A stretch of DNA of 64,000 nt from Mucilaginibacter terrae (lineage in GTDB: Bacteria > Bacteroidota > Bacteroidia > Sphingobacteriales > Sphingobacteriaceae), in assembly GCF_031951985.1 (NCBI RefSeq), contig NZ_JAVLVU010000001.1, positions 3,596,001-3,660,000 on the forward strand, read 5' to 3'. The position numbers were made by a program, and so were the translations under genes. Within the stretch, counting starts at the first letter, position 1. Each line of letters opens with the position of its first letter. Below, piece after piece: positions 49,388 to 55,975 of the stretch. The notes under the pieces were generated by a model. That model searched no databases. It was given only the letters and a program-made list of their open reading frames with translations, and was not told where the DNA came from.

Positions 49388-49669
49388 ATGAAAGCTGTAT
49401 GGAACAACCAGGTTATAGCCGAAAGCGACCAAACTATAGTTGTAGATAACAATCATTACTTTCCTAAAGAAAGTGTTAAAGCAGATTTTTTAAAAGAATG
49501 CGAAACGCATACAACCTGCTCGTGGAAAGGGCTGGCATCCTATTATAACATAGAAGTAGACGGAAAACAAAACCTCGATGCTGCATGGTATTATGCTAAT
49601 CCTAAGCCAGCAGCTGCACAAATAAAAGGTTACATAGCCTTTTGGAAGGGAGTGAAAATTACCGAATGA
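49388..49669 (+). CDS. DUF427-family protein
   Basis: A 93-aa DUF427 protein (MKAVWNNQVIAESDQTIVV, YFPKESVK, CSWKGLASYYNIEVDG and AAWYYANPKPAA). DUF427 is of unknown function. Its stop overlaps the next start as ATGA, so it is translationally coupled to the flavin reductase. Confidence 0.9.
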   Translation: MKAVWNNQVIAESDQTIVVDNNHYFPKESVKADFLKECETHTTCSWKGLASYYNIEVDGKQNLDAAWYYANPKPAAAQIKGYIAFWKGVKITE

Positions 49670-51048
49670 AACAGTACGACGTAATTATAATAGGGGCGGG
49701 CCAGGCTGGTAGTCCGTTAGCGCGCAAAATGGGCAAGGCCGGTAAAAAAACAGCCATTATTGAAAAACGCTGGATAGGCGGTACCTGCGTAAACGATGGC
49801 TGCACGCCAACCAAAACCTGGGTGGCATCGGCACGTGCGGCATATTTGGCCGGGCGTTGTAATAACCTGGGTGTACACATCGATGGCTACAGCATTGATA
49901 TGCCGCAGATTAAAAAGCGCAAAGACGATATTGTGATGCATTCGCGCAGCGGCAATCAAAAAAGCCTGGAAGAAGATCCTAACATTGATGTGTTGTTTGG
50001 CGAGGCATCCTTTAGCGGTCATAAAACCCTCACCGTAAAATTGAATGATGGCGGTACCGAAGAAATTCTGGCCGAGCAAATATTCATCAACGCCGGGTTG
50101 CAAACCGTAATTCCTGATATTGAAGGATTAAGTGATATTGACTATCTAACTTCAACATCTATCCTTGAGTTAGAAACCGTACCTCAGCATATTTTAGTGA
50201 TAGGTGGTAATTACATCGGCTTAGAGTTTGGGCAAATGTTCAGGCGCTTTGGTAGCCAGATCACTTTGCTCGAACGAGGCCCGCGCATTATGAGCCACGA
50301 GGATGAAGACGTATCGCATGAAGTGCATAATATTCTCGAAGAAGAGGGTATAGCCATTTTTACAAATACGCGTGCTACTAAATTCGAGAAAAACGCACAT
50401 GGCCGTATACTGGCAACACTTGATATTGATGGGCGTACCGAAGTAATGGAAGTTACCCATGTGCTTGTTGCTGCAGGTCGTGAACCTCAAACCGAGGCAT
50501 TGAAGATTGATGCAACCGGAGTTGAAACCGATGAAAAGGGTTTTGTTAAGGTAGATAATAAATTACAAACCAATGTGCCCGGCATTTATGCTTTGGGCGA
50601 TATAACCGGTGGTCCGGCCTTTACCCATATATCATACAACGATTTTACCATAGTTTGGCGCAACCTGCTCATGGGCGAAAACCTGACCACAGATGACCGC
50701 CCGCTACCTTACTGTATGTTTACCGACCCGCAACTGGGCCGCGTGGGCATCACCGAAACCGAAGCCAAAAAGCAGGGCATCAATTATAAGGTAGCCGTAC
50801 TTAAAATGACCGGCGTAGCCCGGGCCGTAGAAGTTGGCGAAACCCGCGGCCTCATGAAAGCCGTAGTAAATGCCGATACCAAAGAGATCCTGGGTGTGGC
50901 TATCCTGTCCGAAGAAGGCGGCGAAATTATGTCGGTTATGCAAATGGCCATGCAGGGCGGCATTACGTACGACCGTATCCGCTACTGCGTATTTGCGCAC
51001 CCTACGTATTCCGAGTCGCTGAATAATTTGTTTATGAAGCTGGAATAG
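49666..51048 (+). CDS. pyridine nucleotide-disulfide oxidoreductase (MerA-like core, no mercury motifs)
   Basis: About 460 aa from ATG 49666. FAD motif IIGAGQAGSPLARK, redox Cys pair in GGTCVNDGCTPTK, NAD motif IGGNYIGLEFGQMF and C-terminal His in FAHPTYSESL. The core resembles mercuric reductase, but the HMA domain and the C-terminal Cys pair are absent, so mercury reduction is unlikely. It may be a thiol-disulfide or NAD(P)H-quinone type enzyme. Coupled to DUF427. Confidence 0.9.
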   Translation: MKQYDVIIIGAGQAGSPLARKMGKAGKKTAIIEKRWIGGTCVNDGCTPTKTWVASARAAYLAGRCNNLGVHIDGYSIDMPQIKKRKDDIVMHSRSGNQKSLEEDPNIDVLFGEASFSGHKTLTVKLNDGGTEEILAEQIFINAGLQTVIPDIEGLSDIDYLTSTSILELETVPQHILVIGGNYIGLEFGQMFRRFGSQITLLERGPRIMSHEDEDVSHEVHNILEEEGIAIFTNTRATKFEKNAHGRILATLDIDGRTEVMEVTHVLVAAGREPQTEALKIDATGVETDEKGFVKVDNKLQTNVPGIYALGDITGGPAFTHISYNDFTIVWRNLLMGENLTTDDRPLPYCMFTDPQLGRVGITETEAKKQGINYKVAVLKMTGVARAVEVGETRGLMKAVVNADTKEILGVAILSEEGGEIMSVMQMAMQGGITYDRIRYCVFAHPTYSESLNNLFMKLE

Positions 51049-51189: not shown

Positions 51190-52152
51190 ATGATCAAGGT
51201 TCAAAACCTCAGTAAACAATATGGCCAAACGATGGCTGTCGATAACATCTCGTTCGAAGTAGCTGAGGGCGACAACCTGATACTTTTGGGTACAAGCGGT
51301 TGCGGTAAAACCACCACGCTTAAAATGCTCAACCGACTTATTGAGCCAACCGCCGGGCAAATATTTATCAACGGGCAAGACATTACCACACAACAACCCG
51401 AACTATTGCGCCGCAACATAGGCTACGTGTTGCAAAACAACGGACTCTTTCCGCATTATACCGTGGCCCAAAACATTGCCGTGGTGCCCAACCTGTTAAA
51501 TTGGGATAAAGAGAAAATACGCAGTCGTACTTACGAACTGCTCGAAAAACTGCATTTATCAACTGAATTATTAGATAAGTATCCCGCACAGCTAAGCGGC
51601 GGCCAGCAACAACGTGTTGGGCTTGCCAGGGCACTTATGACCAATGCTCCGGTACTCTTAATGGACGAGCCCTTCGGTGCGCTCGATAATATTACCCGTG
51701 CCAAAATACAGCAAGAATTTAAGGCGCTGGATGAGTTGCAGCGCAAAACCATAGTAATGGTAACGCACGATGTGCAGGAAGCCTTTGAACTGGGTAACCG
51801 CATTGCCATTATGGATAAGGGGAAGATAGTGCAAATGGGTACACCTGCCGAACTGCTGTTTAAACCCGCTAACAATTTTGTTAATGATTTTCTCCATGCC
51901 CAACGCCTCCAGCTTGAATTGAAGGCTATTACCCTGCATAATGTTTGGTATAGCCTGCCATCGGCAAATGAAATGCCTGTTGCCGGTACCGAGGTTGATA
52001 TTGAAGAGAGTATATGGCAGGCCATGCAACAGCTTAAAGGCGATGTAAAATATGTTACCCTTAAACTGCCGCAAACCAATGAGGTTAAATCGGTAAATTT
52101 TGAACAATTGATGGCCGCCTATCACCAATTTCAAATTACCCTGCCAGCATGA
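51190..52152 (+). CDS. ABC transporter ATPase (OpuCA/EgtV-like)
   Basis: A 320-aa ATPase. Walker A GTSGCGKTT (34-42), signature LSGGQQQRVGLARAL, Walker B LLMDEPFGALD, and His-switch VTHDVQEAFELG. The C-terminal part beyond about 240 is not an obvious CBS pair. It overlaps the permease gene by 4 bp. Family members power quaternary-ammonium uptake (betaine, choline, carnitine), and in pneumococcus the related EgtV drives ergothioneine import. Operon with EgtB/EgtD suggests such a betaine-thiol or its precursor. Confidence 0.9.
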   Translation: MIKVQNLSKQYGQTMAVDNISFEVAEGDNLILLGTSGCGKTTTLKMLNRLIEPTAGQIFINGQDITTQQPELLRRNIGYVLQNNGLFPHYTVAQNIAVVPNLLNWDKEKIRSRTYELLEKLHLSTELLDKYPAQLSGGQQQRVGLARALMTNAPVLLMDEPFGALDNITRAKIQQEFKALDELQRKTIVMVTHDVQEAFELGNRIAIMDKGKIVQMGTPAELLFKPANNFVNDFLHAQRLQLELKAITLHNVWYSLPSANEMPVAGTEVDIEESIWQAMQQLKGDVKYVTLKLPQTNEVKSVNFEQLMAAYHQFQITLPA

Positions 52153-53720
52153 ACGATCAACAACAAACCTTATGGCAGTTTATGCAGCAGCAAAGCGATA
52201 AGCTGCTCACCCAAACGCTCGAGCACATTGGGTTAACGCTGGTATCGTTGCTAATAGCCGTGGTTATTGGTTTGCCGCTGGGCATCCTCATTGCTCGCAA
52301 AAGGCAACTTTCGGGTACGGTATTGGGTATTGCCGGGGTTCTGCAAACTATACCAAGCATTGCCCTTTTGGGTTTTATGATACCGCTGTTGGGTATTGGT
52401 GCCAAGCCAGCTATTGTGGCTTTATTTTTATATGCACTGTTGCCCATTATCCGTAATACATACACGGGTATAACCGGGGTAGAGGCATCGGTTAAGGAAG
52501 CTGCCCTGGCTATGGGCATGAGCGCCCGGCAAATACTGTTTAAGGTTGAGCTGCCTTTGGCAATGCCGGTAATATTGGCGGGCATACGCACCGCAACGGT
52601 TATCAACGTAGGGGTAGCAACGCTGGCTTCATACATTGCGGCCGGTGGCCTGGGCGAATTTATCTTCGGTGGAATATCGCTTAATAATAGCAATATGATA
52701 TTGGCGGGGGCCATACCGGCAGCCTTGCTGGCCATTTTGTTTGATGTGTTGTTGTCGGTAGTGCAGCGTGTCAGCTTTAAAAAATTGCAGTATGGTTTGT
52801 ATGCCGTTCCGGTTATTGTAGTGGCATTTGCGCTATTCTACCTCATTACTTCGGCATCGGGCAACGAACTCACTGCTGGTTTTACGCCAGAGTTTATGGG
52901 TAGGCAAGACGGTAACCTCGGTCTTCAACAAAAGTACGGACTGAAAATTCATACCACGGTTATTAATGATGCCGTGATGTATAAAGCTGCTTTTGAGAAG
53001 CAAATAGACGTAATTAGCGGGTATTCTACCGATGGCCGCTTAAAAGCATTTAATTTGGTAGTGCTCGATGATGATAAAAAGATATTCCCACCATATTACG
53101 CCGCGCCGATTGTAAGGTCAGATGCATTGAAAAAATATCCCGGCCTCGAAGATGCCCTCAATCTGTTGTCTGGCCACATCAATGATTCGGTAATGACCGA
53201 TTTGAATTACCGCACCGATCAATTGCACCAAACACCCGAACGTGTGGCTAAAGATTTTTTAGTAGCTAACAAGTTGTTTAAACCTAGTCGCAACGGAAAA
53301 GCAGGTGTTATTCGCATAGGCTCTAAAGTTTTTGGAGAACAATACATTTTGGCCGAAATGTACCGCATGCTTATTGAAGGTAATACGGAGTACACCACAT
53401 TGGCCAAAACCGGTTTGGGTGGTACCAAAATATGTTTTGATGCCCTAACCAATAACCAAATTGATTTTTACCCCGAATATACGGGTACAGGCCTGCTGGT
53501 TTTATTACAGCCATCGGCACAAAAAGTTAAAGAAGTAACGGTTGATAAGCAGAAAACTTACGACTATGTGCAGCAGCAGTTTAATAAAAATTACCACATA
53601 AAGTGGTTAAAACCCATCGGCTTCAACAATGCCTATGCATTAATGATGCGAAAACAACAGGCAGATGACTTGGGCATTAAAACAATTTCGGACCTTAAAC
53701 ACTTTTTGGATAGGAACTAA
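52149..53720 (+). CDS. ABC permease fused to substrate-binding domain (OpuC/EgtU-like, permuted)
   Basis: A 523-aa fusion. The permease (about 22-235) has an EAALAMGMSARQILFKVELP loop and about six helices. The substrate-binding domain follows, but its two halves are in reverse order compared with OpuCC-type proteins: residues 239-378 match the normally C-terminal half (ELTAGFTPEFMGR, DVISGYSTDGRLKAFNLVVL, KKIFPPYYAAP, NYRTD), while 386-521 match the normally N-terminal half (IRIGSKVFGEQYILAEM, DFYPEYTGTGLL, LKPIGFNNAYALMMRK, TISDLKHF). The junction KPSRNGKAG joins the old ends. EgtU of pneumococcus has the same TMD-plus-binding-domain design. Substrate unproven. Confidence 0.88.
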   Translation: MNDQQQTLWQFMQQQSDKLLTQTLEHIGLTLVSLLIAVVIGLPLGILIARKRQLSGTVLGIAGVLQTIPSIALLGFMIPLLGIGAKPAIVALFLYALLPIIRNTYTGITGVEASVKEAALAMGMSARQILFKVELPLAMPVILAGIRTATVINVGVATLASYIAAGGLGEFIFGGISLNNSNMILAGAIPAALLAILFDVLLSVVQRVSFKKLQYGLYAVPVIVVAFALFYLITSASGNELTAGFTPEFMGRQDGNLGLQQKYGLKIHTTVINDAVMYKAAFEKQIDVISGYSTDGRLKAFNLVVLDDDKKIFPPYYAAPIVRSDALKKYPGLEDALNLLSGHINDSVMTDLNYRTDQLHQTPERVAKDFLVANKLFKPSRNGKAGVIRIGSKVFGEQYILAEMYRMLIEGNTEYTTLAKTGLGGTKICFDALTNNQIDFYPEYTGTGLLVLLQPSAQKVKEVTVDKQKTYDYVQQQFNKNYHIKWLKPIGFNNAYALMMRKQQADDLGIKTISDLKHFLDRN

Positions 53721-53725
53721 TTTAC

Positions 53726-54871
53726 ATGACTTTAGCTGAGCGTTATAAAACAGTGCGCCGCCGCACCGAAGATATTTGTAGTCACCTGCAAACCGAGGAT
53801 TATGTGGTGCAACCCGTGGGTGATGTGAGCCCGCCTAAGTGGCATATTGGGCATACTACGTGGTTTTTCGAGACCTTTATACTCAAGGCCTATTTTATGG
53901 GCTACCAGGATTATAACCCCGATTACAACTACGTATTCAACAGCTATTACGAAACCGTAGGCGCACGCGTTATCCGTACCGATAGGGGCAACCTCAGCCG
54001 TCCAACCGTGTTGGATGTTTATCGCTACCGCGAATATGTGGACGAAGCCATTTACAAATTCCTATGCGAAGGGCCATCACCCGAAGTAGAAGAACTGTTT
54101 GTACTTGGTCTTAACCACGAGGAGCAGCACCAAGAACTCCTGTATTACGACATTAAATATATTTTGGGGCATAACCCGCTGTTTCCGGCATATAATCCGC
54201 AATATTCATCACCAAAAATTGAGGAACAACCAGGTTTCATCAGCATAAACGAAGGGGTTTATGAGGTAGGGCACACAGGAGAGGATTTTTGTTTTGACAA
54301 TGAGTTGAGCCGCCACAAGGTATATCTCAATGCTTACCACATAAGTACGGCGCTGGTAACCAATGCCGAGTACCTGGAATTTATTAACAGCGGCGGCTAT
54401 CAGGATTTTAGATATTGGCATGCCGAGGCCTGGGATTGGGTTAAAACCAACAATATTACAGCGCCTATGTACTGGCATAATATTGATGGCGAATGGCATA
54501 ATTACACTCTGCGTGGTTTGGAGCCTTTGCATTTGCACGATAGCGTTCAGCATGTAAGTTTTTACGAGGCTTATGCTTATGCCTCGTGGAAAGGTATGCG
54601 CCTGCCTACCGAGTATGAGTGGGAGGTTGCCGCCACGCAATTTAACTGGGGTAAAAGCTGGGAATGGACCGAAAGTGCTTACCTGCCTTATCCGGGTTTC
54701 AGCAAAGCACCGGGAGCTATTGGCGAATACAACGGCAAATTTATGGTGAACCAAAAAGTGCTTCGCGGAGCATCTGAAGCTACACCGCCCGGGCATAGCC
54801 GCACTACCTACCGAAATTTTTTTCACCCTAACCTGCGCTGGCATTTTACCGGCATACGTTTGGCCCAATAA
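53726..54871 (+). CDS. egtB: ergothioneine biosynthesis protein EgtB (sulfoxide synthase type)
   Basis: A 381-aa non-haem iron enzyme joining hercynine with a cysteine-type thiol to a sulfoxide. The N-terminal DinB-like part carries the iron ligands: His40 in KWHIGHTTW and His131/His135 in NHEEQHQ. The C-terminal FGE-sulfatase domain (about 205-380) carries GGYQDFRYWH, HVSFYEAYAYASWKG, RLPTEYEWE and RTTYRNFFHP. It lies 5 bp after the permease, so the unit is one operon. Whether it uses gamma-Glu-Cys or Cys is not clear; no egtA/egtC is present. Confidence 0.92.
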   Translation: MTLAERYKTVRRRTEDICSHLQTEDYVVQPVGDVSPPKWHIGHTTWFFETFILKAYFMGYQDYNPDYNYVFNSYYETVGARVIRTDRGNLSRPTVLDVYRYREYVDEAIYKFLCEGPSPEVEELFVLGLNHEEQHQELLYYDIKYILGHNPLFPAYNPQYSSPKIEEQPGFISINEGVYEVGHTGEDFCFDNELSRHKVYLNAYHISTALVTNAEYLEFINSGGYQDFRYWHAEAWDWVKTNNITAPMYWHNIDGEWHNYTLRGLEPLHLHDSVQHVSFYEAYAYASWKGMRLPTEYEWEVAATQFNWGKSWEWTESAYLPYPGFSKAPGAIGEYNGKFMVNQKVLRGASEATPPGHSRTTYRNFFHPNLRWHFTGIRLAQ

Positions 54872-54888
54872 TACAATACCATCTACCT

Positions 54889-55884
54889 ATGAAAAATTTT
54901 GAGAACAACGTATTTACCGACACCACGCTTGAGGAGCAGGATTTTAACCAACAGTTTTGCAATGATGTGATCAAGGGACTTACCTCAACACCCAAATGTT
55001 TACAAGCCAAGTATTTTTATGATACCGTAGGCGATGAACTTTTTCAGAAAATTATGGGCAGCCCCGAGTACTATCCTACCAATTGCGAGCTGGAAATATT
55101 CACTCAGCAAACTCAAGAATTAGGTAAAGCCTTGATAGCCGATGGCAGTCCGTTTGATTTGATAGAGCTGGGTGCGGGCGATGCCATGAAATCCACCCAT
55201 TTGCTGCGCCATTTGATGGATAAGGAAGTCGATTTCAGGTATGTACCTATCGATATTTCGGGACATGTGATTAACTATTTGAAAGAAACCTTGCCCGCAA
55301 CCGTACCCGGCCTGCAAGTGATTGGATTAACGGGCGAATATTTTCACATGCTGAAAGAAGCCGCCGAACTATCGCCACGCCGTAAAGTGGTTTTGTTTTT
55401 GGGCTCCAACATTGGCAATATGCCGGTGGCCGAGGCCGAAGCGTTTTGTACTGAGCTCCGTAATCATTTAGCCAAAGGCGACAGGGTTTTAATGGGTGTG
55501 GATTTAAAAAAGCATCCTAAAACTATTTTGGCTGCTTATAATGATGCCGATGGCTATACCCGCGATTTTAATTTAAACCTACTCACCCGCATAAATCGCG
55601 AATTGGAGGCTGATTTTGATTTGTCGCAGTTTGAGCATTACCCTATGTACGACCCTGAAACCGGTGCCTGTAAAAGCTATTTGATTAGCCTGGCCGATCA
55701 GCAGGTAAATCTTTGCGATCAAACCATTCAGTTTGCAAAAGATGAGTACATATACATGGAGATATCGCAAAAATATACCGTTGCCCAAACTAACTACATG
55801 GCCTCATTTTCGGGCTTTAAACCGGTGCAGCATTTTTACGATATCCGTAACTGGTTTTTAGACGCAGTTTGGCTGGTAGAGTAG
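54889..55884 (+). CDS. egtD: L-histidine N-alpha-methyltransferase EgtD
   Basis: A 331-aa SAM enzyme that makes hercynine by triple methylation of histidine. SAM motif ELGAGDAMKS (93-102), the conserved Asn174 in LGSNIGN, Tyr in EYYPT near 61-62, and the substrate-binding Glu291/Ser293 in MEISQKYT, matching the E/S pair known from the mycobacterial enzyme. Last gene of the operon; the PLP C-S lyase EgtE is not in the window, as expected for other Bacteroidota where it lies apart. Confidence 0.93.
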   Translation: MKNFENNVFTDTTLEEQDFNQQFCNDVIKGLTSTPKCLQAKYFYDTVGDELFQKIMGSPEYYPTNCELEIFTQQTQELGKALIADGSPFDLIELGAGDAMKSTHLLRHLMDKEVDFRYVPIDISGHVINYLKETLPATVPGLQVIGLTGEYFHMLKEAAELSPRRKVVLFLGSNIGNMPVAEAEAFCTELRNHLAKGDRVLMGVDLKKHPKTILAAYNDADGYTRDFNLNLLTRINRELEADFDLSQFEHYPMYDPETGACKSYLISLADQQVNLCDQTIQFAKDEYIYMEISQKYTVAQTNYMASFSGFKPVQHFYDIRNWFLDAVWLVE

Positions 55885-55945: not shown

Positions 55946-55975
55946 GCTGTATGTGTCCTCACATACAGCTTTTTT
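55946..55975 (+). terminator. terminator of the egt operon, first of two
   Basis: Perfect 10-bp stem gctgtatgtg/cacatacagc, loop tcct, six T. Confidence 0.9.

Follow-up and report, generated by a model that had tools for sequence, protein, structure and literature searches.

The window analysed here, the whole stretch of 64,000 nucleotides from Mucilaginibacter terrae, contains a run of genes on the forward strand in which an ABC importer is directly followed by genes for ergothioneine synthesis. The run starts with a small DUF427 gene (PF04248; 49388–49669, +; Pfam, 2e-33), followed by genes for an FAD/NAD(P) disulphide oxidoreductase of the PRK06370/RclA/MerA-like type (49642–51048, +; Pfam/NCBIfam) and for a ProV/OpuCA/EgtUA-like importer ATPase subunit (51190–52152, +; ABC_tran, 1.9e-39; proV, 1.7e-92), the latter overlapping the start of the permease gene by 4 bases. 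Six bases past the stop codon of the permease gene starts egtB, encoding an EgtB-type sulfoxide synthase (53726–54871, +; TIGR03440, 4e-159, above the cut-off), and next comes egtD, encoding an EgtD-type L-histidine N-alpha-methyltransferase (54889–55884, +; PF10017, 1.2e-96; TIGR03438, 7.6e-86, with 288.0 bits against a cut-off of 290.9). A terminator-like hairpin after egtD (55946–55969, +), consisting of a 10-pair stem and a subsequent TTTTTT, was found as a pattern match only.

The permease gene itself (52149–53720, +) encodes 523 amino acids, of which residues 1–235 constitute the permease, followed by an OpuC/EgtU-type substrate-binding domain (SBD). The transmembrane permease domain (TMD; 52149–52853, +) matches the ABC importer permease family BPD_transp_1 (PF00528, 5.9e-25) over residues 41–213, and its last helix spans residues 210–235 in the AlphaFold2 model. 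A short tether, residues 236–239 (52854–52865, +), located within a segment of low confidence (pLDDT <50 at 233–239), leads into the canonical C-half of the binding domain, which is placed first (residues 240–378; 52866–53282, +). The nine-residue linker KPSRNGKAG, recognised from the sequence (residues 378–386; 53280–53306, +), then joins the canonical C-terminus to the canonical N-terminus, and the canonical N-half comes last (residues 387–523; 53307–53717, +). From phmmer searches against the PDB, S. pneumoniae EgtUC emerged as the nearest solved structure, with query residues 240–378 corresponding to chain residues 138–276 and query residues 390–518 to chain residues 10–134. PF04069 (OpuAC) was likewise matched in two stretches, both halves scoring above threshold (197.5 bits against a cut-off of 21.2): protein residues 240–371 correspond to profile positions 114–255, and in the genome-level search the reciprocal stretch, profile positions 3–112, follows directly after the first. 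The break lies between TISDLK (HFLDRN-end) and (N)ELTAGF, which are neighbours in canonical proteins, and the N-to-C order of halves that is usual in OpuC, OsmX and EgtU, though not in B. subtilis OpuAC, is not found here. The original prediction of a permease fused to an SBD with swapped halves, including its coordinates, is thus confirmed by the reading frame, Pfam and phmmer. The proposed break between SDLKxF and ELTAG and the KPSRNGKAG linker hold as well, with the refinement that the cut sits neither at a lobe boundary nor at a hinge. Over 104 loci compared, the spacing of the linker is nearly constant.

The order of the halves was further assessed by hhalign, using an alignment of 53 permuted SBD sequences (A1) against the canonical SBDs of Listeria, E. 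faecalis, Niallia and one Fusobacteria plasmid homologue. In native order, the C-half alone aligned with the four canonical SBDs over 136–142 columns (E 1e-30 to 1e-38), while in swapped order 263–270 columns were aligned (E 1e-53 to 1e-59). The domain is consequently not collinear with its canonical relatives, and the collinear HMM alignment that would have spoken against a permutation was absent. AlphaFold2, run on A1 and therefore on permuted sequences only, modelled the SBD in native order with a pLDDT of 92.8 and a pTM of 0.89. In a Foldseek search against the PDB, the top match of this model was B. subtilis OpuAC, a binding protein of permuted strand order, with which it aligned collinearly over 299 columns (13% identity, TM 0.57–0.62), while EgtUC aligned over 139 columns, i.e. 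one half, at 44% identity. The standard strand order, which a structure prediction could have revealed, is therefore not seen. The model supports folding of the SBD into what would be an ordinary two-lobe clamp with normal cage residues. The full-length model (pLDDT 85.8, pTM 0.68) places the SBD directly after the last transmembrane helix (210–235), with residues 233–239 poorly resolved and the first SBD strand at 242, and has fused OpuA structures as its best structural matches, with L. lactis OpuABC (7AHC/7AHD) at the top. In the latter the TMD is likewise fused N-terminally to a betaine SBD, but it differs in its canonical half order, its Trp-type pocket and an ATPase with CBS domains (PMC2861598). 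The swapped order could in principle be neutral, if the halves paired between two protomers in a domain-swapped dimer and no chain formed a closed permuted clamp of its own. The complex is expected to hold two copies of the chain, and isolated PBP lobes are known to swap elements (PMC9815098); however, in the high-confidence prediction of the monomer both lobes form within one chain, and the linker between the canonical termini is short and nearly constant in length, which makes such pairing very improbable.

The permuted arrangement is widespread. A scan of genome contigs gave a full-length permuted reading frame in all 80 loci from other species records, comprising Mucilaginibacter, Pedobacter, Flavobacterium rivuli and MAGs. 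All 47 matches in the family and all 129 in the order (among 250 genomes) were single, full-length and permuted. Of 395 Bacteroidota genomes sampled evenly, 54 contained a match, namely 22 permuted, 31 canonical and 1 fragment, with the half order confirmed for the fetched loci. The survey of Bacteroidota originally suggested for the spread of the order accordingly gives 22 of 53 classifiable matches. The permuted form spans at least six GTDB families and includes Bacteroidota outside the class of the window (Bacteroidia). An assembly or annotation artefact carries practically no probability, since an intact reading frame with conserved neighbours recurs in more than 100 independent genomes, and the conservation of the full-length permuted frame rules out artefact or chance alike. 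Canonical-order Bacteroidota homologues are arranged as N-half, C-half, TMD or, in one family, as separate subunits, while the fused homologues of Firmicutes, Fusobacteria and Synechocystis read TMD, N, C. In 20 non-Bacteroidota homologues from plasmid records N precedes C throughout, those of Firmicutes, Fusobacteria and Synechocystis often being fused. The homologue of Gemmatirosa (Gemmatimonadota) is SBD-first as well, so that the SBD-first fusion of canonical Bacteroidota and one Gemmatimonadota member represents a third way of building this importer. Neither canonical TMD-N-C members nor TMD-N-C-N-C intermediates were found in the Bacteroidota genome samples.

In trees of the TMD together with the reordered SBD, all permuted proteins formed one clade (UFBoot 100 in IQ-TREE, SH-like 0.994 in FastTree), located among canonical-order fused relatives, while the canonical-order sequences all lay across a branch of UFBoot 99. 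In the same tree, the permuted clade grouped with the TMD-first fused proteins of Fusobacteria and Synechocystis at 99, and the SBD-first proteins of Bacteroidota formed a separate group at 98. The SBD alone gave moderate support for the permuted clade (UFBoot 80–83), and in the TMD-only tree three canonical sequences fell inside it. A single permutation of a TMD-N-C ancestor offers the simplest account. We propose that the circular permutation of the SBD would have occurred once, in the ancestor of this clade found in Bacteroidota, a likely route being tandem duplication of the SBD to TMD-N-C-N-C and subsequent loss of the outer halves.

This origin has to be weighed against inheritance of the permuted order from an OpuAC-type ancestor, with no new permutation within the OpuC/EgtU group. 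Compared with L. lactis OpuAC, B. subtilis OpuAC (2B4L/2B4M; the query sequence matched 2B4L along its full length) has its halves exchanged in the same way, the cut lying behind SIEDLK; it ends on SIEDLKK and starts at the equivalent strand, so that half order and cut site agree with the protein described here, and it is also the top structural match. Circular permutation among the betaine-binding proteins 2B4L, 1R9L and 1SW1 was already reported in 2008 (PMC2395249). However, OpuAC is a separate, unfused lipoprotein (PMC2861598), and kinship to it was not apparent in sequence: hhalign gave E ~0.03 in either order, a weak test with a single OpuAC sequence, compared with at most 1e-53 for the canonical SBDs. 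The halves share about 33–45% identity with canonical EgtU/OpuC proteins, the permuted clade branches from within the canonical fused proteins, the permuted Bacteroidota SBDs tended not to join with OpuAC, and a Trp pocket in OpuAC stands against a Tyr cage in the permuted proteins (PMC9732360). Inheritance from OpuAC is accordingly highly unlikely. With a new permutation preferred, the locus appears to represent a second, sequence-independent occurrence of the half-swap in betaine-binding proteins, here fused to a permease. We are confident that it encodes an importer subunit which is permuted, folds and arose once; its substrate would be a quaternary-ammonium compound.

The nature of that compound can be approached from the pocket, whose residues are named here as in PMC9732360 (SpEgtUC numbering). 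The equivalents of K242, T275, T296, N339, Y341, E375, R379, D381, Y419 and Y443 are identical in all 32 permuted proteins compared, and in the window they include K393, T447, N494, Y496, E248, R252, D254, Y292 and Y316. The cage and carboxylate residues of EgtU (N339, Y341, Y419, Y443, K242, T296, R379 and E375) are hence complete throughout. Like the protein of the window, the EgtU (EgtUBC) of Firmicutes combines a TMD and a following SBD in one chain with a partner gene for a ProV-like ATPase; together with H. pylori EgtU it shares the aromatic cage, E375, R379, K242 and T296 and comprises the closest SBD sequences in the PDB. It differs in that its halves are not swapped, and G244, F293 and Y337 of Firmicutes EgtU are absent here: G244 is replaced by F (28 proteins) or Q (4), F293 by Y and Y337 by F, while G, F and Y are kept in 8 of 8 Firmicutes controls. 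Since these Firmicutes specificity determinants were looked for and are lacking, we do not class the protein as EgtU. The permuted proteins with Q at position 244 are a subgroup from elsewhere in the Bacteroidota, in which Q possibly reflects a different ligand preference.

F/Y/F at positions 244/293/337 is the pattern of the glycine-betaine binder AfProX rather than that of EgtU (PMC9732360), and the system could therefore transport osmoprotectants in general (glycine betaine, choline, carnitine) and merely be located in or near an ergothioneine operon. The same pocket occurs in canonical Bacteroidota homologues, mostly away from egtB–egtD, and several permuted loci have no egtB–egtD nearby. 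On the other hand, the G244F exchange in S. pneumoniae EgtU lowered affinity ~100-fold and did not abolish binding (PMC9732360), and H. pylori EgtU (8dp7), deposited with ergothioneine bound, aligns as S, Y, F at these positions; the Y/F switch alone does not exclude ergothioneine. Adjacency to egtB–egtD is near-universal in Sphingobacteriaceae: both genes are encoded on the same strand at a distance of up to 4 kb in 76 of the 80 Sphingobacteriaceae/Flavobacterium loci, and in 15 of 24 loci of a diverse permuted set compared with 3 of 31 canonical loci. At the genome level, egtD was present in all 18 sampled genomes with the permuted form and in 30 of 31 with the canonical form, i.e. in 48 of 49 with either form against 23 of 49 without (Fisher 6e-9), and within Bacteroidia in 13 of 13 permuted genomes against 4 of 26 without (Fisher 3e-7), both values referring to non-random controls and being uncorrected for shared ancestry. 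Unlike with the EgtU of Firmicutes and H. pylori, the host of the permuted importer itself carries ergothioneine synthesis genes. We consider a general osmoprotectant transporter possible but rather doubtful. With the gene directly before egtB–egtD in Sphingobacteriaceae, a betaine of the ergothioneine type is the most likely cargo despite the absent Firmicutes EgtU specificity residues, and we infer that an ergothioneine-related compound is probably carried. The system would work like an EgtU/OpuC importer, with transport activity itself presumed.

Two further genes accompany the importer. In 70 of the 80 Sphingobacteriaceae/Flavobacterium loci, the oxidoreductase gene precedes that of the ATPase, ~1 kb upstream of the permease gene, and the DUF427 gene adjoins it on the same strand in 49 of 80; in some distant permuted loci, a DUF427 gene is also located close to the transporter. 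A related oxidoreductase gene follows those of EgtU and its ATPase on plasmids of Ligilactobacillus, Liquorilactobacillus and Leuconostoc. As a guess, the product of 49642–51048 may be considered a candidate ergothioneine-disulphide reductase.

The domain limits of SpEgtUC, with D1 at 233–331 and 445–506 and D2 at 341–432 (PMC9732360), were transferred by alignment, resulting in the order TMD 1–235, D2 240–305, D1 318–379, linker, D1 387–486 and D2 496–523, with hinges between D2 240–305 and the D1 segment from 318, and between D1 387–486 and D2 496–523. The cut is therefore placed inside lobe D2, just ahead of its ligand-binding strand, and shifts the tether from D1 to D2: the TMD leads into D1 in Firmicutes and into D2 here. 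A changed tether, as originally predicted, is hence evident from the anatomy, with D2 instead of D1 after the last transmembrane helix. This helix runs within a few residues into the ligand-binding strand of D2, while in Firmicutes EgtU it leads into the first strand of D1. In the model, the first run (D2 core; E10–13, H24–31, E36–39, H42–50, E56–60) and the second (D1 core; E155–161, H164–180, E184–191, H193–202, E208–212) open both halves with the same beta-alpha-beta-alpha-beta pattern, so that the new attachment appears pseudo-symmetrically equivalent to the old one. This pattern is visible in the modelled secondary structure only; sequence similarity between N-half and C-half, as expected for an internal duplication, was not detectable. 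Attached in this way, the SBD would remain able to reach the permease dimer and to dock there, now anchored through the other lobe, and docking may be altered by the new tether. More tentatively, moving the anchor from D1 to the pseudo-symmetric D2 position might cause the SBD to dock on the two-fold permease dimer rotated by a half-turn with respect to the chain it belongs to, with changes in cis/trans docking and in coupling, an arrangement that would have been fixed in a Bacteroidota clade within an ergothioneine-uptake system.

Permuted binding proteins have precedents, which lower the novelty of the topology as such. Besides B. subtilis OpuAC with its identical half-swap, T. pallidum TpMglB-2 (Cluster Bc), a member of another binding-protein class, is a naturally permuted, membrane-tethered ABC binding protein, for which tethering was proposed by the authors as a possible reason for the permutation (PMC4990184). 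It differs in binding sugar, in belonging to Type I/Cluster B, in a different permutation and in being unfused to a permease. Full-text searches of the open-licence literature gave no paper on an EgtU/OpuC domain that is both permuted and fused to a permease, and we claim no priority. With the SBD covalently fixed to the permease, docking must tolerate the rearrangement. Canonical-order Bacteroidota homologues share the pocket signature, the single-chain fusion and the presence of egtD in their genomes, but are SBD-first and form a separate clade. Matched sets with closely similar pockets are consequently available as canonical TMD-N-C, permuted TMD-C-N and SBD-first N-C-TMD, which render the importance of the anchored lobe directly testable; if half-turn docking holds true, the permutation would constitute a natural experiment on which lobe needs tethering. 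Annotation under one HMM label hides such permutations. The locus points to an unstudied, ergothioneine-linked importer that is common in Mucilaginibacter, Pedobacter and their relatives.
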